Shown here piece by piece: positions 28,197 to 48,387 of a DNA stretch of 64,000 nt (the first letter of the stretch is position 1; each line of letters begins with the position of its first letter). The notes below the pieces were generated by a model. The model did not search any database. It was not told the origin of the DNA and saw only the letters and a list, made by a program, of their open reading frames with translations. The DNA is from Hyphomonadaceae bacterium (GTDB taxonomy: Bacteria; Pseudomonadota; Alphaproteobacteria; Caulobacterales; Aquidulcibacteraceae). The stretch is from assembly GCA_022841905.1 (NCBI GenBank), contig JALHQO010000006.1:62001-126000 (forward strand), read 5' to 3'. Position numbers and translations under genes: made by a program.

Positions 28197-29606
28197 GTGG
28201 CCGAACGCATGCAGAAATTCGTGTCTGTCGGGCAAAAGTGGCCAGATAAGCGCCCCTCCGAGGAGCGGGCGGAGGATTTCCATGAAATCTATCGCGAGTT
28301 CATTGCGCAAAAAGCCGCTGATCAGGCCGCCCGTTGCGCGCAATGCGGCGTGCCGTTCTGCCAGACCCATTGCCCGCTGCAGAACAACATTCCCGACTGG
28401 CTGAAGCTCACCGCTGAAGGCCGGCTCGAAGACGCCTACCGGCTCTCCGCCTCGACCAATTCGATGCCCGAAATATGCGGCCGTATCTGCCCGCAGGATC
28501 GCTTGTGTGAAGGCGCCTGCGTGATCGAGCAAAGCGGCCATGGCGCGGTAACGATCGGCGCGGTGGAAAAATACCTGACCGAGACCGCCTGGCGCGAAGG
28601 TTGGGTCGAGCCCATCCGCCCGCGCGCTGAGCGCGCCGAGAGCATCGGCATCATTGGCGCAGGCCCTGCGGGCCTCGCGGCCGCCGAGCGCATGCGCCTG
28701 CGCGGCTATCAAGTCACCGTCTATGATCGCCACGACCGCGTCGGCGGCTTGATGATTTACGGCATCCCGAACTTCAAGTTGGAGAAGGATGTCGTCGAGC
28801 GCCGCACGCAGCGGCTCATCGATGGCGACGTGAAGTTCGAGCTCAACTGCAATGTTGGCGAGACGATCAGCTTCGCCGATCTCCGCGCCAAGCACGACGC
28901 GGTGCTAATCGCGACCGGCGTGTATAAGGCCAAGCCGCTCAACGCGCCGAACGAGCGCGCCATCATCCCTGCGCTGGATTTTCTCATCGCCGCCAATCGT
29001 GTCGGCCTCGGCGACGATGTGGCCGACTTCGCCTCTGGCAAGCTCAACGCCAAGGATCGCCGCGTCGTCGTTATCGGCGGCGGCGATACGGCGATGGATT
29101 GCGTCCGCACCGCGCGCCGCCAGGGCGCAGCCAGCGTCACCTGCCTCTATCGCCGCGACCGCGCCAATATGCCGGGCTCGCAACGCGAAGTGTCGAACGC
29201 CGAAGAGGAGGGCGTCGCCTTCGATTGGCTCGCGGCGCCCAAGAGCGTGCGCGCCGGCAAGGCGCCGGCCGTGAAAGCCGTGCGCATGCAGCTCGGCCCG
29301 CCCGATGAGAGTGGCCGGCAAACGCCGGAGGAAACCAAGGACACCTACGATGTCCCCGGCGATCTCATCATCGCCGCGCTCGGCTTCGATCCGGAGGATT
29401 TGAGTTCCTGGGGCGCGGCGACCACGCGCTGGGGCACGCTCAACGTTAATCCGCTGACTTATGAAACCAATCTCCCTGGCGTCTACGCCGCCGGCGACAT
29501 CGTGCGCGGCGCCTCGCTCGTCGTCTGGGCCATCCGCGAAGGCCGCGACGCATCGGATGCCATGCACGCGTGGATTCAAGCGCAAGCCAAGGTGGCTGCG
29601 CTATGA
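28197..29606 (+). CDS. gltD: Glutamate synthase (NADPH) small subunit
   Basis: The 469-residue beta subunit passes electrons from NADPH via FAD to GltB. It has the N-terminal cluster motifs CAQCGVPFCQTHCPL and CGRICPQDRLCEGAC, the FAD site IGIIGAGPAGLAAAERM and the NADPH site VVVIGGGDTAMDCVRTA. Start GTG 28197 is preferred since GGAGGG lies 5 bp upstream and the family begins ~5 residues before QKFV. It precedes and overlaps gltB (ATGA). gltD-before-gltB order is less common than gltB-first. Confidence 0.94.
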   Translation: MAERMQKFVSVGQKWPDKRPSEERAEDFHEIYREFIAQKAADQAARCAQCGVPFCQTHCPLQNNIPDWLKLTAEGRLEDAYRLSASTNSMPEICGRICPQDRLCEGACVIEQSGHGAVTIGAVEKYLTETAWREGWVEPIRPRAERAESIGIIGAGPAGLAAAERMRLRGYQVTVYDRHDRVGGLMIYGIPNFKLEKDVVERRTQRLIDGDVKFELNCNVGETISFADLRAKHDAVLIATGVYKAKPLNAPNERAIIPALDFLIAANRVGLGDDVADFASGKLNAKDRRVVVIGGGDTAMDCVRTARRQGAASVTCLYRRDRANMPGSQREVSNAEEEGVAFDWLAAPKSVRAGKAPAVKAVRMQLGPPDESGRQTPEETKDTYDVPGDLIIAALGFDPEDLSSWGAATTRWGTLNVNPLTYETNLPGVYAAGDIVRGASLVVWAIREGRDASDAMHAWIQAQAKVAAL

Positions 29607-32600
29607 GCGGCTACGAAGATATCGCGCGCTATGAGCGCGAACGCGCGCGCCTCGAGCGCGACGGCCTCTATCTCCCGGAGCACGAACGCGACGCGTGCGG
29701 CGTCGGTCTTGTCGCAGCCATTGACGGCAAGCCGCGCCGCGAAGTCGTCACGCTCGCCATCGCCGCGCTGAAAGCGGTCTGGCACCGCGGCGCAGTCGAT
29801 GCTGACGGCAAAACCGGCGACGGCGCAGGCATCCTGGTCGAAGCGCCGCAAGACTTTTTGCGCGAAGCCGTCGCCCGCACTGGCCACACCCCAAAAGATG
29901 CGCCGATCTTTGTCGGCCAAATTTTTCTGCCGCGCCTCGATCTCGGCGCGCAGGAACGCGCGCGCGTTATCGTGGAAAGCGAAATTATCCGCGCTGGCTT
30001 CACGCTTTACGGTTGGCGCCAGGTGCCGGTGAACATCAGCCAGATCGGTGAAAAGGCCAACGCCACGCGCCCGGAGATCGAGCAAGTTCTGCTCTACGAT
30101 CCGCAAGGCCGTGCAAGCGAAATCGTCGATCGCGATCTCTACATCTGCCGTCGCCGCATCGAACAGCGCGCGCTCTCGGAAAACGTCACCGAGCTTTACG
30201 TCTGCTCGCTCTCGGCCAAACGCCTCGTTTATAAAGGCATGTTCCTGGCTCAGCAGATCGACGCGTTTTATCCTGATCTGCGCGATGAGCGCTTTGTCTC
30301 GTCGGTTGCGATCTATCACCAGCGCTATTCGACCAACACGTTCCCGCAATGGCGCTTGGCGCAACCCTTCCGCATGCTCGCCCACAATGGCGAGATCAAC
30401 ACGCTGAAGGGCAACATCAATTGGATGAAGAGCCACGAAATCCGCATGACGTCCGATGCGTTCGGCGATGCGGATGGCGATGTGAAGCCGATCATTCAAC
30501 CGGGCGGTTCGGATTCGGCTGCGCTGGATAATGTCTTCGAGGTGCTGGTGCGCGCTGGCCGCGATGCGCCGATGGTGAAATCGCTGCTGATCCCGGAAGC
30601 GTGGGCCAAGTCGCGCACGATGAAGAGCGAGCACCGCGCGCTCTACGCGTACTGCAACGCCGTGATGGAGCCGTGGGACGGCCCCGCCGGGCTTGCCATG
30701 TTTGATGGACGCTGGGCGGTCGCGGGCCTCGATCGCAATGGCCTGCGGCCACTGCGCTACGCGCTGACCGAAGATGGCTTGCTCGCTGTCGGCTCCGAGA
30801 CCGGCATGTGTCCGCTCGACGGCAAGAAAATTCTCGAACGCGGCCGCATCGGCGCCGGGCAGATGATCGCTGTCGATACGCGCGAGGGCCGGCTCTATCA
30901 TCATGAGGAATTGGTCGACGCGCTCGCCGCGCAGCACCCTTACGGCGAATGGCTCGAAAACATCATCGATCTCGACAAGACGCTGATCGGCGCCGAGCCG
31001 CGTCTCTACGCCGATCGCGCCGAGTTGCTGCAACGCCAGGCGGCCGCCGGCTACACGATGGAAGATGTCGAACTGTTGCTGCAGCCGATGCTCGAAGATG
31101 GCAAGGAAGCGATCGGTTCGATGGGCGATGATGCGCCGCTCGCCGTGCTCTCTGAGCAAAACCGGCCGCTCTCACACTATTTCCGCCAGAACTTCAGCCA
31201 GGTCACCAACCCGCCGATCGATCCGCTCCGCGAAGGCCGCGTGATGACGCTGACCACGCGTTTCAAAAACCTTGGCAACATTCTGGCGCAGGACGAAACG
31301 CAGGCGAACGTCTACGTGCTCTCAAGCCCCATCCTCACCAACGGCATGCACGAGCGCTTGCTCGAGGAGCTCGGCGGCGAAGTCGCGCGTATCGATTGCA
31401 CCTACGAAAAGCCAGCGCCGGGCGAAGAGGGGCCGGCGCTGCGCAAAGCGCTAGAACGCATTCGCGCCGAAGCGCAGCAAGCCGTCGGCTTCAATCAGCG
31501 CAGCCACATCGTACTGACCGACGAAGCGCAGGGGCCGGATCGCATTGCCTGCCCAATGATCCTGGTCACGAGCGGCGTCCACGCGCATCTCACCAAGAAG
31601 GGCCTGCGCACGTTCTGCTCGCTCAGCGTGCGTAGCGCCGAGTGCCTCGATCCGCACTATGCCGCCGTGCTGATCGGCTGCGGCGCCACCACCGTGAACC
31701 CCTATCTCGCGTTCGACACCATTGCCGACCGCGCCTCGCGCGGGCTCACCGGCGATCTCACGCGCGAGCAAGCGGCCGCGAACTATCGCGCAGCACTCGA
31801 AGCGGGCTTGCTCAAGATCATCTCGAAGATGGGCATCTCGGTGATCTCGTCTTATCGCGGCGGCTTGAACTTCGAAGCCATCGGCCTTTCGCGCGCTTTG
31901 GTCGATGAATTTTTTCCGGGCCTCGTCAGCCGCATTTCTGGCATCGGTTTGAACGGCATTGCCTATGAAGCGGCCGAACAGCACGAACGCGCCTACGATG
32001 AGACGCTGACGGCGCTCCCGCTCGGCGGCCAGTATCGCTATCGCGCCAGCGGCGAACGCCACGCACTCGAAGCCAACTCGATCCACCAGCTTCAGGCGGC
32101 GTGCGACACTGGCGATTACAAAGCCTACCGCAAATATTCCGAAGTCATCCGCGAGCGCCGCTTGGGCCAGCCGATCCAGTTGCGTGATTTGCTCGAAGTC
32201 CGCGAAGAAAAACTGCGCCCCACGCCGATCTCGGAAGTCGAAAGCGTCACTGAAATCCGCAAGCGGTTCTTAACGCCCGGCATGAGCATGGGCGCGCTCA
32301 GCCCTGAAGCGCACGGCGCGCTCAACATCGCCATGAACCGCATCGGCGCGCGCAGCGTCTCGGGCGAGGGCGGTGAAGATCCCGCGCGCTATACGCCGCA
32401 TCCGAATGGCGACGACGAAAACTCGGCCGTCAAGCAAGTCGCTTCCGGCCGCTTCGGCGTCACGGCGGAATATCTGAACCAGTGCCGCGAAATCGAAATC
32501 AAAGTCGCCCAAGGCGCCAAGCCCGGCGAGGGCGGCCAGCTGCCCGGCTTCAAAGTCACCGAGCTAATCGCGCGCCTGCGTCACGCGACGCCCGGCGTCT

Positions 32601-34144
32601 CGCTGATCAGCCCGCCGCCGCACCACGACATCTACTCGATCGAGGATCTCGCTCAGCTCATCTATGACCTAAAGCAGATCAACCCGGTCGCGCGCGTTTG
32701 CGTGAAGCTTGTCGCCCAATCCGGCATTGGCGCGGTTGCAGCGGGAGTCGCGAAGGCGGGCGCCGATACGATCCTCATTTCCGGCCACGTTGGCGGCACC
32801 GGCGCGTCACCGCAAACCTCGATCAAGTACGCCGGCATCCCGTGGGAAATGGGGCTAGCTGAGGCGCATCAAACCCTGATGCTCAACAATCTCCGTCACC
32901 GCGTGCGCCTGCGCACCGATGGCGGCTTGCGCACTGGCCGCGATGTGGTCGTCGCCGCCATCCTCGGGGCCGAAGAGTTCGGCATCGGCACAGCCTCGCT
33001 CGTCGCCATGGGCTGTCTCATGGTGCGACAGTGCCATTCTAACACATGCCCGGTCGGCGTTTGCACGCAAGATGAGGCGCTCAGAAAGAAGTTCACCGGC
33101 ACGCCGGACAAGGTCGTCAATCTGATGACCTTCATCGCTGAAGAAGTGCGTGAAATCTTGGCGCAGATCGGCTTCCGCCGCCTGGAAGAAATCATTGGCC
33201 GCACCGACCTCATCGAACAGATCAGCCGCGGCGCAGAGCATCTCGACGATCTCGACCTCAACCCGCTGCTCGTCCGCGTCGATAGCCCGTATCCGCCTTA
33301 TTGCACGCAGCTCACGCGCAACGAGCCGCCGCAAGCGCTCGATCACGATTTCCTCACACAAGCGCCGGCCTTCTTCGAGCGCGGCGAAAAGCGCCAACTC
33401 GATTTTACCGTGCGCAACACTCAGCGCGCCATCGGCACGCGGGCGTCCGCGCACGTTGTTCGCCGTGTCGGCCAGAACGCGCTGCCGGAAGGCCAGCTCA
33501 GCGTGAATCTGCGCGGCTCATGCGGCCAAAGCCTTGGCGCGTTCATGGTGCAGGGCATCGCGCTGCACGTGACGGGCGACGCTAACGATTATGTCGGCAA
33601 GGGCCTCTCCGGCGGCCTCATCACATTGAAGCCCGCGCCGGGCGAGCCCACCGGCGCCATCATCGGCAACACATGCTTGTACGGCGCAACCAGCGGCCGG
33701 CTCTTCGCCGCCGGCCTGGCCGGCGAACGCTTCGCCGTGCGTAACTCTGGCGCGACCACCGTCGTCGAAGGCGCCGGCGCCAATGCCTGCGAGTATATGA
33801 CGGGCGGCACAGCGATCATCCTCGGCGCCGTGGGCGAGAATTTCGGCGCCGGCATGTCGGGCGGCATGGCCTTCGTCTATGACGAAGATGGCCGCTTCGA
33901 ATCGATGGTTAATGGCGACACCATCGTCTGGCAACGTTTGGCGTCGAAGCACTGGGAAGAGCTGCTGAAGGCGCTCATCGAAGAGCACGCCAAACGCACC
34001 GCCTCGCCGCGCGCCGCCGAACTGCTCGCCCACTGGAGCGTCGCCCGCGGCCGCTTCTGGCAAATCTGCCCGAAGGAAATGCTGCCCCGGCTTGCGCATG
34101 CGCTGAGTGATGACGCAAGCACGTCATCCGTCGCAGCCGCTTGA
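29603..34144 (+). CDS. gltB: Glutamate synthase (NADPH) large subunit
   Basis: GltB makes two glutamates from glutamine and 2-oxoglutarate. The 1513-residue chain begins with a short propeptide; Cys32 in DACGVGLVA is the expected N-terminal nucleophile of the class II amidotransferase domain (to ~430). A central domain, the FMN/2-oxoglutarate domain and a C-terminal GXGXG beta-helix follow. The 3Fe-4S cysteines are Cys1138, Cys1144 and Cys1149 (CLMVRQCHSNTC). Ammonia tunnels between domains. Its last codons form the left copy of a 20-bp direct repeat. Confidence 0.96.
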   Translation: MSGYEDIARYERERARLERDGLYLPEHERDACGVGLVAAIDGKPRREVVTLAIAALKAVWHRGAVDADGKTGDGAGILVEAPQDFLREAVARTGHTPKDAPIFVGQIFLPRLDLGAQERARVIVESEIIRAGFTLYGWRQVPVNISQIGEKANATRPEIEQVLLYDPQGRASEIVDRDLYICRRRIEQRALSENVTELYVCSLSAKRLVYKGMFLAQQIDAFYPDLRDERFVSSVAIYHQRYSTNTFPQWRLAQPFRMLAHNGEINTLKGNINWMKSHEIRMTSDAFGDADGDVKPIIQPGGSDSAALDNVFEVLVRAGRDAPMVKSLLIPEAWAKSRTMKSEHRALYAYCNAVMEPWDGPAGLAMFDGRWAVAGLDRNGLRPLRYALTEDGLLAVGSETGMCPLDGKKILERGRIGAGQMIAVDTREGRLYHHEELVDALAAQHPYGEWLENIIDLDKTLIGAEPRLYADRAELLQRQAAAGYTMEDVELLLQPMLEDGKEAIGSMGDDAPLAVLSEQNRPLSHYFRQNFSQVTNPPIDPLREGRVMTLTTRFKNLGNILAQDETQANVYVLSSPILTNGMHERLLEELGGEVARIDCTYEKPAPGEEGPALRKALERIRAEAQQAVGFNQRSHIVLTDEAQGPDRIACPMILVTSGVHAHLTKKGLRTFCSLSVRSAECLDPHYAAVLIGCGATTVNPYLAFDTIADRASRGLTGDLTREQAAANYRAALEAGLLKIISKMGISVISSYRGGLNFEAIGLSRALVDEFFPGLVSRISGIGLNGIAYEAAEQHERAYDETLTALPLGGQYRYRASGERHALEANSIHQLQAACDTGDYKAYRKYSEVIRERRLGQPIQLRDLLEVREEKLRPTPISEVESVTEIRKRFLTPGMSMGALSPEAHGALNIAMNRIGARSVSGEGGEDPARYTPHPNGDDENSAVKQVASGRFGVTAEYLNQCREIEIKVAQGAKPGEGGQLPGFKVTELIARLRHATPGVSLISPPPHHDIYSIEDLAQLIYDLKQINPVARVCVKLVAQSGIGAVAAGVAKAGADTILISGHVGGTGASPQTSIKYAGIPWEMGLAEAHQTLMLNNLRHRVRLRTDGGLRTGRDVVVAAILGAEEFGIGTASLVAMGCLMVRQCHSNTCPVGVCTQDEALRKKFTGTPDKVVNLMTFIAEEVREILAQIGFRRLEEIIGRTDLIEQISRGAEHLDDLDLNPLLVRVDSPYPPYCTQLTRNEPPQALDHDFLTQAPAFFERGEKRQLDFTVRNTQRAIGTRASAHVVRRVGQNALPEGQLSVNLRGSCGQSLGAFMVQGIALHVTGDANDYVGKGLSGGLITLKPAPGEPTGAIIGNTCLYGATSGRLFAAGLAGERFAVRNSGATTVVEGAGANACEYMTGGTAIILGAVGENFGAGMSGGMAFVYDEDGRFESMVNGDTIVWQRLASKHWEELLKALIEEHAKRTASPRAAELLAHWSVARGRFWQICPKEMLPRLAHALSDDASTSSVAAA
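34119..34138. repeat. 20-bp direct repeat, left copy (3' end of gltB)
   Basis: GCACGTCATCCGTCGCAGCC, within the last codons of gltB. An exact second copy lies at 36374–36393. Together they bracket the double-TIR and GGDEF genes (~2.25 kb). Confidence 0.85.
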
Positions 34145-34195
34145 CAGCGTGACGTAATCTGGCCGGTTTGCTAGCGTGAGCCCCGGAGCAAAGCA

Positions 34196-35047
34196 ATGTC
34201 GCACGACGTGTTCTTGGGATTCCGCACGGCCCAGAGGGGAGATGCGGCGCGGATCAAGGCGCACATGAACGAGCGCGGCCTGTCAGTCGTAGATTGGGCA
34301 GACACGACGTCGATGGACAGCCACGATGCGATTGAAGCTTCGGCCATATATGCGTTGCTGATAGGTCCGCACACGTTCGCGCCGTCCGTCGAATATGAGA
34401 GGCGCAACCCGTACGTGTTCGCCGAGGCTGAGTTCGCGTACCGAGCAGGAAAGCGAATTTTGCCGGTGCTGTTGCAGGGCGGCGATCTTCAAAACGTACC
34501 TACGGAGCTGTCTTTCCTGAAAAGAACCCAGGCGGAGCGGCTTAGGCCGGAGCCGGACTTCCTTCCCGACCTTGAGGACTTGATCACCAAGTTGCTTGAC
34601 GAGGTACAAAAACCGGCTCGACGTCATCGCCCTGCTGCACCGACATCCCCGATCGATCGCGGCGAAGCGGGGCAAGTGTTCATTAGTCACTCAACCGTTG
34701 ACGGCGCACTGGAGGCCGCTGCGCTTGCTGGAGCGCTTGAAGCCGAGGGTGTGCGCTGTTGGATAGCGCCACGCGACGTTGAGCCGGGTAAGACCTACCC
34801 CGGTCAGATTGTACGTGCGATCGAACGTTGCCGCGCTTTGGTCCTGATGCTGACTCCAGAAGCTGACCGAAGCGCGGACGTTTTGCAGGAAGTACAAATC
34901 GCACACTCAGCAAAAAAATTGGTTGTACCAGTCATCATACGCCACACGGTGCCTGGCGACGACATTCGATATTTTATCTCGGTGCGCCACCAAATTCTCT
35001 GGTCTGATGGGCAATCCACCGCCAATCGGGTCCGTGGTGTGATATAG
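34196..35047 (+). CDS. Protein with two TIR-type domains
   Basis: The 283-residue protein has two TIR-like halves. Residues ~3–135 start HDVFLGFR and include NPYVFAEAEFAYRAGKRILPV; ~159–270 start GQVFISHSTVDGALEAAALA and include CWIAPRDVEPGKTYP and EVQIAHSAKKLVVPV. By alignment with known TIR NADases the catalytic glutamates would be Glu77 and Glu232. Bacterial TIRs act in antiphage systems (Thoeris, TIR-APAZ and others) or in virulence by cleaving NAD+. No membrane or sensor domain is seen. By hand count on sampled lines GC is ~55–60% against ~65% in gltB. ATG 34196 follows GGAG. A TTGACA at 34141 lacks a good −10. Defence role is inference. Confidence 0.85.
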   Translation: MSHDVFLGFRTAQRGDAARIKAHMNERGLSVVDWADTTSMDSHDAIEASAIYALLIGPHTFAPSVEYERRNPYVFAEAEFAYRAGKRILPVLLQGGDLQNVPTELSFLKRTQAERLRPEPDFLPDLEDLITKLLDEVQKPARRHRPAAPTSPIDRGEAGQVFISHSTVDGALEAAALAGALEAEGVRCWIAPRDVEPGKTYPGQIVRAIERCRALVLMLTPEADRSADVLQEVQIAHSAKKLVVPVIIRHTVPGDDIRYFISVRHQILWSDGQSTANRVRGVI

Positions 35048-35196
35048 CGCCGTTTAGCCGGCTCATAGCGATCGACATCGCCGCGGTCGCCTAGCGGACT
35101 ACAGTTCTTAACTCCGTTCGCGCACCGCGATTTAACCGCGTTCGCGCAAGGTGGCGCCTCAGACCGGCGCATCCGCGCGACGATTAGGGGTACTCC

Positions 35197-36369
35197 ATGT
35201 TCCGCGCGCGAGGATCGCAGCCTCGCCAGCCGCTCCCGGACGACGTCTATGCGGAGCTCGTGGACATCCTCTATCGCTCGATGTCGCCGCTCATCAATAT
35301 GGGCGTCGTCGTCACCTGCGTCGGGGCTCTGCTCTACACGATGACCGGGGATGTCTCCGTCGCCGCGCTCACTGCGGTGTCGCTGGTGATTACAGTCGCG
35401 CGGGTGGGGTTGAACTCCGCTTACAAGCGCCGCCGCGCGGCGGCGATGCTGACGCTTCCCGAAGTGAAAAGCTGGGAGCTGCGGTTTGCGATAAGCAGCA
35501 CTATTGCGGCAACCGCGCTCGGCGCGCTAATCGGGCGCGCCGTCGCCGTAGGTGATGGCGCGGTGCCGTTGTTGGCGAGCGGGCTTATGTTTGGATACGC
35601 CGCCGGCGCGGTGATCCGGCTTTCCGTTCGCCCCGTCACTGTTGGCCTCTCGCTGCTGGCGGTTGTCGGCCTCACGCTCTGCGGTTTCGCCGCCAACTTC
35701 GACAATAGCGATGAGCACTACCGCTTTGCCTATATGAGCATGGCGCTGCTGATCCTGGTGTTCACGCTCGGCACCGGCGAAATGGTCAACCACCTCTACC
35801 GCACCACGCTCGAGCATCTGATGACCAAGTCCATGCTCTCGCATTTGGCGCGGCGCGATCCGCTGACCGGCCTCGCTAATCGCCTGTCACTGCGCGAGCG
35901 CTTCGATCAAGACATTTTGCAAGCGCGCGAGTCCGGCGATCTCATCGCCTTGCATTTTCTCGATCTCGACCGCTTCAAGGCGGTCAACGACAATTTCGGC
36001 CACCCGACGGGCGATGCCTTATTGAAGATGGTCGCAGGGCGTCTCTCTAATGTCCTGCGCGAGGGCGATACTGCCGCGCGCCTCGGCGGCGACGAATTCG
36101 TCATTCTGCAGATCAACATCAACGAGCCTAGCGAAGCCGCAGTCCTGGCGCGCCGGATCGTGCGGGAGATCAGCGCGCCCTACCGCGTCGATGGCCGCGA
36201 ACTTCATATCGGCGCCAGCGTCGGCATCGCGCTTGCGCCGCAAGACGGCGTCGATCTCGATCACCTCGCGGCGCGGGCAGACGAGGCGCTCTATCAAGCC
36301 AAGACGACCAAGCGCGGTACGATCGGTTTCTGGGCGCCGCCGCGGCCCTTGGCTCAAGGCGCAGCCTAG
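35197..36369 (+). CDS. Membrane diguanylate cyclase (GGDEF)
   Basis: The 390-residue protein has about six N-terminal membrane segments (residues ~30–190) and a C-terminal GGDEF domain with an intact active site (LGGDEFVIL near residue 297), DLDRFKAVND and the product-inhibition site RxxD five residues before it (REGD). It should make c-di-GMP from two GTP. The membrane part is a 6-helix sensor without a named ligand. ATG 35197 follows AGGGG. Ten-base repeats CGTTCGCGCA at 35115–35124 and 35139–35148 lie just upstream and may be an operator. It sits inside the 20-bp repeat pair with the TIR gene. Confidence 0.9.
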   Translation: MFRARGSQPRQPLPDDVYAELVDILYRSMSPLINMGVVVTCVGALLYTMTGDVSVAALTAVSLVITVARVGLNSAYKRRRAAAMLTLPEVKSWELRFAISSTIAATALGALIGRAVAVGDGAVPLLASGLMFGYAAGAVIRLSVRPVTVGLSLLAVVGLTLCGFAANFDNSDEHYRFAYMSMALLILVFTLGTGEMVNHLYRTTLEHLMTKSMLSHLARRDPLTGLANRLSLRERFDQDILQARESGDLIALHFLDLDRFKAVNDNFGHPTGDALLKMVAGRLSNVLREGDTAARLGGDEFVILQININEPSEAAVLARRIVREISAPYRVDGRELHIGASVGIALAPQDGVDLDHLAARADEALYQAKTTKRGTIGFWAPPRPLAQGAA

Positions 36370-36373
36370 GCGC

Positions 36374-36393
36374 GCACGTCATCCGTCGCAGCC
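36374..36393. repeat. 20-bp direct repeat, right copy
   Basis: GCACGTCATCCGTCGCAGCC, 4 bp after the GGDEF stop, identical to 34119–34138 at the end of gltB; flanking bases differ on both sides. Non-coding here. Confidence 0.85.
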
Positions 36394-36464
36394 CCGTGAG
36401 CGCTCGTCGCGCGCACGCATCCAGACTTCACGCCCTCGGCATCTCCCGAACGTCAGGGAGAGAC

Positions 36465-36551
36465 ATGAAACGCGTGCTCGTACTCCTGCTCGTCGTGTTG
36501 ACCGCCGCCGGCCTCGCCATCGGCGCGCTCGGATTCACCGCCGGCGTTTGA
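36465..36551 (+). CDS. 28-residue single-helix membrane peptide
   Basis: ATG 36465 follows AGGGAGA and opens a 28-codon frame ending TGA 36549–36551. The peptide (MKRVLVLLLVVLTAAGLAIG then ALGFTAGV) is one membrane helix with a basic start. Ribosome site and composition suggest translation; no family is recognised. It lies 31 bp upstream of queG. Confidence 0.45.
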   Translation: MKRVLVLLLVVLTAAGLAIGALGFTAGV

Positions 36552-36581
36552 CCCTGCGCGCGCGCTTGCCCATAGCAGGGC

Positions 36582-37682
36582 GTGTTTTCAAAGCAGGCCC
36601 TCCAGGCGCAAGCCCGCGCGCTCGGCTTCGACGCTATCGGCGTCGCCGATGCGCGCGCGCCGTGGCCGAATGAAGCTTGGCTGGCGGAGTTTCTCGGACA
36701 AGAGCGCCACGGCGACATGGCTTGGATGGCAAACGAAAGCCGCGCCCATCCCACTGCGCTTTGGCCTGACGCCCGCAGCGCCATTCTCGTCGGCCAATCC
36801 TACGCACCAGCGGACGACTCGCTCGCGCTATTGAGCGAGAAGCAAAGCGGACTTGTGTCCGCCTACGCCGCGCGGCGCGATTATCACGACGTCGTCAAAG
36901 GCAAACTGAAACAGCTCGCTCAATGGTTGGCGCGTGAGAGCGGGGAGGAGGTGAAGGTCTTCGTCGACACCGCGCCGCTGATGGAAAAGCCGCTGGCTGC
37001 GCGCGCGGGTCTCGGCTGGCAAGGCAAGCACACCAATCTCGTCTCGCGGGAGCATGGCTCTTGGCTCCTTCTCGGCGCCATTCTCTCCGCCGCCGCGATG
37101 GAAGCGGATGCGGCGCATGAGGATAATTGCGGCTCGTGCCGCGCGTGCTTGGATATCTGCCCGACCAATGCGTTCCCGGCGCCGTACCAACTCGATGCAC
37201 GCCGTTGCCTCGCTTACCTCACCATCGAATCCAAAACTCAGATCCCGCGCGAATTCCGCGCCGCCGTCGGCAATCGTGTGTTCGGGTGCGACGATTGCCT
37301 CGCCGTCTGCCCATGGAACAAATTCGCCGCCGATGCGCGCGAGCAGCGCATGGCGATGCGGGACGATTTACGCCTCGCGCCGCTCGCCGAACTGGCCGCG
37401 CTCGATGACGCGGCCTTCCGCACCCGGTTCGCAGCGACGCCGGTTAAGCGCACCGGCCGCGACCGGTTTGTTCGCAACGTGCTCTGTGCTGTTGGAAACT
37501 CGGGAGATTCCGCACTCGCCCCGGTTGCCGAGATGCGGCTTGGGGATAGTTCTCCCCTGGTGCGCGGCATGGCGGTGTGGGCGCTGGCGCGTTTGCTTGA
37601 CGCGGAGGCGTTTCAACGCCTCAAATCCGCCTGGGCGCCGCGCGAGCAGGACGCGAGCGTGGCGGAGGAATGGGGCGCATGA
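36582..37682 (+). CDS. queG: Epoxyqueuosine reductase
   Basis: QueG reduces epoxyqueuosine to queuosine in tRNA, using cobalamin and two 4Fe-4S clusters. The 366-residue protein has the cofactor domain (ALGFDAIGVADARAP, FVDTAPLMEKPLAARAGLGW), clusters in CGSCRACLDICP (from ~183) and CDDCLAVCPWN, and a C-terminal HEAT-like region (NVLCAVGNSGDSALAPV…). GTG 36582 is the start, matching the usual N-terminus. It overlaps the mtgA start by 4 bp. Confidence 0.94.
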   Translation: MFSKQALQAQARALGFDAIGVADARAPWPNEAWLAEFLGQERHGDMAWMANESRAHPTALWPDARSAILVGQSYAPADDSLALLSEKQSGLVSAYAARRDYHDVVKGKLKQLAQWLARESGEEVKVFVDTAPLMEKPLAARAGLGWQGKHTNLVSREHGSWLLLGAILSAAAMEADAAHEDNCGSCRACLDICPTNAFPAPYQLDARRCLAYLTIESKTQIPREFRAAVGNRVFGCDDCLAVCPWNKFAADAREQRMAMRDDLRLAPLAELAALDDAAFRTRFAATPVKRTGRDRFVRNVLCAVGNSGDSALAPVAEMRLGDSSPLVRGMAVWALARLLDAEAFQRLKSAWAPREQDASVAEEWGA

Positions 37683-47430: not shown

Positions 47431-47868
47431 ATGCGCGCCCTGATCCTCGCTTTCGCACTCGCCGCCTGCACGCAACCCGCGCCCGCCGAAGCGCCGCCAC
47501 CCGCGCAGACTGAGCTTGTGCAGCGCATCCAGGCTGATCTCGAACGCATCGACCGCGAGCTTGCCGCTGAAGGCGTCGTCGCGGCCGGCCTCAACGAAAC
47601 CGCCGATCTCGGCGGCGGTCTTACCGTCACGCCGCTCGAAGTTCTCGAAGACAGCCGCTGCCCGGCGAATGTGGATTGCGTTTGGGCAGGGCAGGTGCGC
47701 TTGCGCGTCAACATATCCGGCGCCGAAGCCGAACTCATTTCCGACCAGCCGCTGGCGACGCCGAACGGCACGATTGTGCTCGCCGTCGTGCGGCCGTATC
47801 CGTTTCAGGAATGGCCGGAAGATGAGATCGCCATTCCGCCGTATCGCTTCGGTTTTCGCCGCGACTAG
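47431..47868 (+). CDS. Lipoprotein, first of two paralogues
   Basis: The 145-residue protein starts MRALILAFALAACTQPAP, a lipobox L-A-A-C. Its core, ADLGGGLTVTPLEVLEDSRC followed by CVWAG, is repeated in the next gene as ADLGGGLTVRPLAIIEDSRC and CLWAG. The R-C-P-x-N-V-x-C-x-W-A-G motif occurs in assorted secreted proteins; the two cysteines probably make a disulfide. No function known. Tandem duplication is evident from the shared length and motif order. Confidence 0.7.
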   Translation: MRALILAFALAACTQPAPAEAPPPAQTELVQRIQADLERIDRELAAEGVVAAGLNETADLGGGLTVTPLEVLEDSRCPANVDCVWAGQVRLRVNISGAEAELISDQPLATPNGTIVLAVVRPYPFQEWPEDEIAIPPYRFGFRRD

Positions 47869-47895
47869 CGTAGAAAACGCGTGGGGGACTTCACG

Positions 47896-48387
47896 ATGAC
47901 AATCCGCACCGTTTTCTTCGCCGCATTGCTGCTGGCCGCTTGCGCGAGCCCGGCGCCAGCGCCTGCGCCCACGCCGCCGCCTGCGCCCGCGCCGATGCCG
48001 GAACCGTATTCCCAACTCGGCCGCCAAATCCACGCCGACATGGCGCGTCTCAATGCAGCGCTGCGTGAGCCGGGCATCGTCACCGCTGAAATTGGTCAAA
48101 CCGCCGATCTCGGCGGCGGGCTCACCGTGCGTCCGCTCGCCATCATCGAAGACAGCCGCTGTCCGCAAAATGTTCAGTGCCTGTGGGCCGGGCGCATGCG
48201 CGTCCGCGCCATGGTGTCGGGCGTCGACACCGAACTCACGCTCGGTGAGGGATATTATCAGTCAGCGCGCGGCGTCGTTCAGTTCGAGGTCGCGTCACCC
48301 GGCGCCTGGGCCGAATGGCCACGCGAAGAGTTGGGGCCAAGACCTGCTTATCGCTTCGGGTTTCGCCGCGGGGCTAGCCCCGGCTGA
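47896..48387 (+). CDS. Lipoprotein, second of two paralogues
   Basis: The 163-residue protein has a lipobox at LLAAC and a Pro/Ala-rich linker (SPAPAPAPTPPPAPAPMPEP), then the same motif set as its upstream neighbour (SRCPQNVQCLWAG) and the same ending YRFGFRR. ATG 47896 is chosen for its GGGGGA spacing; GTG 47881 upstream is weaker. The pair interrupts the normal infC–rpmI order. Its 3' end overlaps the opposite-strand membrane gene by 14 bp. Confidence 0.7.
   Translation: MTIRTVFFAALLLAACASPAPAPAPTPPPAPAPMPEPYSQLGRQIHADMARLNAALREPGIVTAEIGQTADLGGGLTVRPLAIIEDSRCPQNVQCLWAGRMRVRAMVSGVDTELTLGEGYYQSARGVVQFEVASPGAWAEWPREELGPRPAYRFGFRRGASPG

Follow-up and report, generated by a model that had tools for sequence, protein, structure and literature searches.

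The double-TIR gene and the membrane GGDEF gene that separate gltB from queG in the window (the whole 64-kb stretch of DNA analyzed) appear to have arrived separately. The reading that we consider the more probable is that gltB received two insertions in succession, both entering at almost one codon, first that of the GGDEF gene and then that of the TIR gene, each bringing a replacement tail for GltB. Three gltB ends follow one another in the window, one of them live and two displaced, and the closest relative contains the GGDEF gene without the TIR gene. An earlier note on this DNA had regarded the two genes as a single segment bracketed by an exact direct repeat. The repeat was confirmed, but its two copies seem to belong to different events.

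The repeat and the three gltB ends

A sequence search of the window found the exact 20-bp direct repeat at 34119–34138 and 36374–36393 (the genes, gltB tails and repeat copies of the gltB–queG region are on the forward strand). With two mismatches allowed, the pair extends to 26 bp (92% identity; 34119–34144 and 36374–36399) and includes both stop codons. As described previously, the first copy lies in the last codons of gltB, of which it is the C-terminal end, and the second starts 4 bp past the stop codon of the GGDEF gene (36369). No third copy of the 20-mer was present in the window at up to 3 mismatches (shuffle mean 0.04), and the assembly to which the window belongs (3.56 Mb, 27 contigs) contained these two exact copies and one additional match with three mismatches. 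The window shuffles and assembly counts rule out that the repeat is a chance match or a sequence common in the genome. Its 17-base core occurs in 69 stretches of the species collection, and the 20-mer had no match in viral contigs.

The gltB gene (29570–34144), encoding the large subunit of glutamate synthase (Pfam GATase_2, Glu_synthase and GXGXG), ends in the live tail LSDDASTSSVAAA, followed by a stop codon; this end is the first repeat copy (34119–34144). Live tails of the same type were found in G019, G020 and G024. The DNA past the second copy (36374–36399) of the window, and that past the copy in the closest relative, G001, aligns with post-gltB DNA of G024 and G020, and in the case of G020 the alignment takes in the start of an S41-peptidase-like gene. 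Thus, the second copy represents the original end of gltB, still in its native surroundings. A 28-codon open reading frame at 36466–36549, which can be aligned to the beginning of that gene in G020, is probably a remnant of such a gene. The earlier proposal that DNA was inserted at the end of gltB and restored it is supported by this displaced end and by the native flank in relatives. The stretch at 36350–36627, which covers the DNA after the GGDEF gene with the buried gltB end and the 28-codon frame, is 95–99% identical between the window genome and G001 in 100-bp steps, after which identity is 89%; either constraint or recent recombination would explain this.

The third end, 21 bases at 35074–35094, lies between the TIR and the GGDEF genes and encodes DIAAVA and a stop codon. 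In G001 this is the live gltB end: its tail, LVDQGDIAAVA, is unlike the live tail of the window, and the 20-mer occurs once in the 16-kb stretch from G001, after the GGDEF gene. The buried tail and the live tail of G001 encode identical residues and differ at three bases, every one of them at a third codon position (chance of 1 in 27). The alignment of the two genomes resumes at about 35073, upstream of the GGDEF gene, and there are 4 differences in the 102 bases beyond the buried tail. Upstream of 35074 the preceding codons of this old tail are not clearly kept, and therefore the join was not a clean reciprocal one.

Several comparisons suggest that DIAAVA is a genuine gltB tail. Among 28 GltB sequences, 20 fitted the full-type pattern and the 8 divergent ones were left out; all 20 full-type tails, that of G001 included, have L-x-D after the conserved block. 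When 2006 random in-frame tails were drawn from the window, 5 (0.25%) resembled 18 real tails on average at least as much as the G001 tail does, and 28 (1.4%) had at least as high a best similarity. The aspartate together with the ending [AV][AV]A was found in 0 of 2006 random tails; these features were chosen post hoc and would be rare in any case. Two tails accepted as real (G016, G008) scored no better than that of G001, or about equal to it. At the DNA level the likeness to tails of other species was borderline: the buried tail scored 24, which equals the 95% point of real segments, and the longer tail of G001 scored 27 against a null with a 95% point of 24 and a maximum of 30. Judging from these sequence comparisons, we hold with moderate confidence that the ancestral gltB would have ended in DIAAVA once the GGDEF gene had arrived, and that the TIR gene would have come later with a TSSVAAA tail.

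The gltB–queG interval in related genomes

The gltB C-terminal region was matched in 27 of 30 genomes of the genus, this one included. The gap from the gltB stop codon to where the queG match begins (queG, assigned by Pfam, occupies 36582–37682 and forms the right boundary of the interval) could be measured on one stretch in 18 of them. It was 46–170 bp in 7 genomes and 437–7543 bp in 11, so the variability anticipated in the earlier note is real. The empty site that it had suggested looking for also exists: in G019, gltB stands directly before queG with neither gene between them, and in six other genomes of the genus the gap is likewise at most 170 bp. Even in G001, the closest relative (98% amino acid identity in GltB), the site is only half filled, in the order gltB–GGDEF–queG. 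The assembly of G001 is fragmented (190 contigs, 87% complete). Relatives do not all carry the pair of genes at this place.

Other intervals contain an S41-peptidase-like gene (G020, G024), a UPF0060 membrane protein (G014), a cation-efflux protein (G009), or proteins with no Pfam match above the cut-off (G004, G008, G017, G023, G024, G041). As both the sizes and the contents of the gaps differ, the gltB–queG interval is a place of gene turnover. This could suggest that the gap is simply tolerant of ordinary gene gain and loss, and that the common position of the two junctions is a coincidence. The spread of gap sizes with unrelated contents fits such an explanation, which is a serious possibility, though in our view less than an even one, since by itself it leaves the double replacement of the gltB tail unexplained.

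The earlier note had also envisaged other cargo between the same repeats, and none was seen. Of 13 intervals examined, displaced gltB tails exceeded shuffles in those of the window genome and G001; none rose above 40 shuffles in the 11 others (10 from the genus, 1 from another family). No integrase was found among the 22 open reading frames scanned in the other intervals, and the search for leader or trailer DNA of the TIR or GGDEF gene after another gltB gave nothing above shuffles. Identity between the window genome and G001 along the interval varies from 81 to 100%, and because of this unevenness later recombination may blur the order of events.

Some other features of this region were observed in relatives. 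The 7.5-kb interval of G024 (L049:2814-10355) holds several genes, mostly without Pfam matches, and a secreted helical family similar in appearance to one encoded there, as grouped by eye, occurs in the intervals of G004, G008, G017, G023 and G041. In G038, from another family, the interval (L064:4186-8255) contains two consecutive genes with citrate-synthase domains. Four members of the genus, G043, G006, G011 and G010 (L112, L113, L114 and L115), have a divergent gltB, with 66–68% identity in the C-terminal part, and no queG was present on the stretches fetched.

The double-TIR and GGDEF genes

The identities given previously to the two genes were upheld, with the N-terminal TIR half being the weaker assignment. 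The TIR gene (34196–35047) encodes a protein of 283 amino acids, the C-terminal half of which matches TIR_2 of Pfam with E = 3.2e-18, and the N-terminal half with E = 2e-5 (25.5 bits, slightly below the Pfam cut-off of 28). In an alignment with 20 relatives, both halves have the glutamate that is conserved in TIR active sites, which we take to be the catalytic residue. The GC3 of the gene (0.63) differs from that of gltB (0.78), the GGDEF gene (0.79) and queG (0.75), and is the lowest among the listed open reading frames of the window, although GC3 itself had a part in drawing up that list.

No full-length relative of the TIR protein was found in the 29 other genomes of the genus. The best match there was 33% identical over residues 158–267; most of the matches listed fall in the C-terminal domain, and the N-terminal domain was matched in three genomes (G018, G019 and G024; 31–39%). 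At E <= 1e-12, 8 of 385 genomes of the class had a match, its own genome included, and the others covered residues 144–270 only. Searches of genome contigs, plasmids, phages and viral contigs found no relatives, and PDB sequences gave no match at E 0.01. The orphan double-TIR protein is probably a recent arrival.

The protein shares the TIR_2 domain with bacterial TIR effectors such as TIR-SAVED and Thoeris, and the top PADLOC match was SAVED_TIR (E = 7.5e-14, to the C-terminal TIR). Unlike those effectors, the protein has two TIR domains and no recognized sensor domain, and no partner gene lies beside it, its neighbors being gltB and the GGDEF gene. No named TIR defense system scored above the cut-off in PADLOC or NCBIfam: the sole Thoeris match in NCBIfam reached 20.9 bits, where the cut-off is 220, and the ThsB models of PADLOC were matched weakly (E = 1.4e-4 or worse). 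The likeliest role suggested by its domains would be that of an NAD-consuming, possibly anti-phage protein.

The GGDEF gene (35197–36369) encodes 390 amino acids, with the GGDEF domain recognized at E = 6.8e-46 by Pfam and also above the TIGR00254 cut-off. The GGDEF domain itself is shared with membrane diguanylate cyclases, whereas the membrane half found here, in which the membrane segments were judged by eye, matched nothing significantly in Pfam or NCBIfam and was found in 2 of 398 genomes of the order, this one and G001. Between these two species the gene is under purifying selection (dN/dS 0.133; 0.182 for the membrane half and 0.025 for the GGDEF half). The GGDEF motif and the RxxD stretch are intact, and we assume that they have their usual site roles, the latter in product inhibition. 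The protein is therefore likely a product-inhibited diguanylate cyclase of the membrane, as predicted from its sequence. Upstream of the gene, at 35115–35150, a direct repeat CGTTCGCGCA around CCGCGATTTAACCGCG was noticed by eye and may be a regulator site. As the TIR and GGDEF genes seem to be separate arrivals, there is no reason to see them as one NAD/c-di-GMP system.

The proposed history and its possible mechanisms

In the first of the two proposed steps, in the common ancestor with G001, DNA carrying the alternative tail ending in DIAAVA and the GGDEF gene would have entered the end of gltB. This would have moved the original end, of the TSSVAA type, downstream of the GGDEF gene, where it still precedes its native flank. 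In the second step, in the window lineage only, a TSSVAAA-type tail and the double-TIR gene would have entered at almost the same codon, burying the DIAAVA tail behind the TIR gene. GltB would have stayed intact after each insertion, since a functional end came with the new DNA. Several points count against these two steps, among them the borderline likeness at the DNA level, the 1-in-27 chance of the third-position pattern, the join that is not clean, the uneven identity along the interval and the fragmented assembly of G001. In addition, the buried tail has a length of just 21 bp, and no donor with TIR after gltB was found, there being no full-length TIR relative in the other 29 genomes, so the return of the TSSVAAA tail requires an unseen close relative. 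If the two steps are right, the live and fossil gene ends form a readable stratigraphy of insertions at one central gene, recording both their order and their point of entry.

The closest precedent for the replacement of a gene end with displacement of the old one is prophage e14 at icd of E. coli, where, in the account that PMC6379469 gives of it, a 15-kb prophage left a displaced end of 163 bp. The likeness lies in foreign DNA entering a gene of central metabolism at its 3' end, supplying a new end and displacing the old one downstream, as is proposed here. Unlike e14 as portrayed there, the units in the window are about 1–1.3 kb in size, contain single genes without an integrase, and left displaced ends of 21–26 bp. 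A literature search gave no confirmed precedent for gltB as an integration site.

Two mechanisms could account for the tails, and we regard one-sided homologous recombination and site-specific integration as about evenly matched. In the former, homologous recombination within gltB at one end would be combined with illegitimate joining at the other, and the donor DNA would come from a relative carrying gltB followed by the TIR or by the GGDEF gene. Such homology-facilitated illegitimate recombination is described in PMC3240628. Pairing by homology on one side, with arbitrary joining on the other, would set a donor gltB end beside a new gene. In its favor, the DNA that entered brought a gltB end along. 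It predicts scattered joins, whereas here both joins are at nearly the same codon and the donor is unseen. For the GGDEF gene no donor appeared among the 398 genomes of the order, where its membrane half was found nowhere beyond the pair. GTA-type and ComEC-type genes are present in the genome and may be set on the side of homologous recombination, but neither proves anything; ComEC-type genes are widespread. Also against it, no long foreign tract was seen in gltB, where the identity between the window genome and G001 over the last 600 alignment columns, in 50-bp steps, was 84–98%, with 52% in the final 50.

Under site-specific integration, an element of the tyrosine-integrase type would have its attB at the 3' end of gltB and bring a new end with every unit, the integrase having since been lost or acting in trans. 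It is compatible with two steps, and e14 at icd (PMC6379469, as cited above) shows how a gene end can be replaced in this way. The displaced tails begin at nucleotides 17 and 16 from the start of the conserved leucine codon, a near agreement that hints at a preferred entry point, although two events are few. We nevertheless think it rather improbable. The interval contains just the TIR and GGDEF genes and no integrase, as the earlier note had stated, and among 6 Phage_integrase matches in the genome none lies closer than about 29–31 kb. An outer 20-bp pair surrounds both units, but the flanks of the TIR gene alone share no repeat of at least 7 bp. The lack of the 20-mer in viral contigs, and of displaced tails and integrases in the other intervals, also stands against such an element. 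Nothing in these data requires a new mechanism. Should further relatives turn out to share the junction, a route would come to light by which single accessory genes without a recombinase of their own reach fixed chromosomal sites.

One insertion or two

The outer repeat could also be explained more simply, by a single insertion of the TIR and GGDEF genes flanked by a duplication of 20–26 bp of the gltB end (attL/attR-like or a target duplication). The live tail of the window being of the type found in G019, G020 and G024 agrees with that. G001 would then have lost the TIR gene by a deletion that fused gltB in frame to the sequence before the GGDEF gene. Such a fused tail would have to mimic real gltB tails by chance, as few of the random tails did, and the differences between it and the buried tail fall at third positions alone, as if both had been coding. 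We therefore consider a single insertion unlikely. Taken together, the GGDEF gene without TIR in G001, the older tail between the two genes and their differing GC3 point to separate events for the repeat copies, and the single segment that the earlier note had placed between them is not supported. Less likely still is a site-specific system that targets the gltB 3' end and moves tiny single-gene cassettes with their own working gltB tails, the recombinase acting in trans and the newest cassette lying next to gltB.

Elsewhere in the window, two 141-nt copies, 75% identical to each other, were observed in adjacent open reading frames at 47597–48238, which are probable paralogues.
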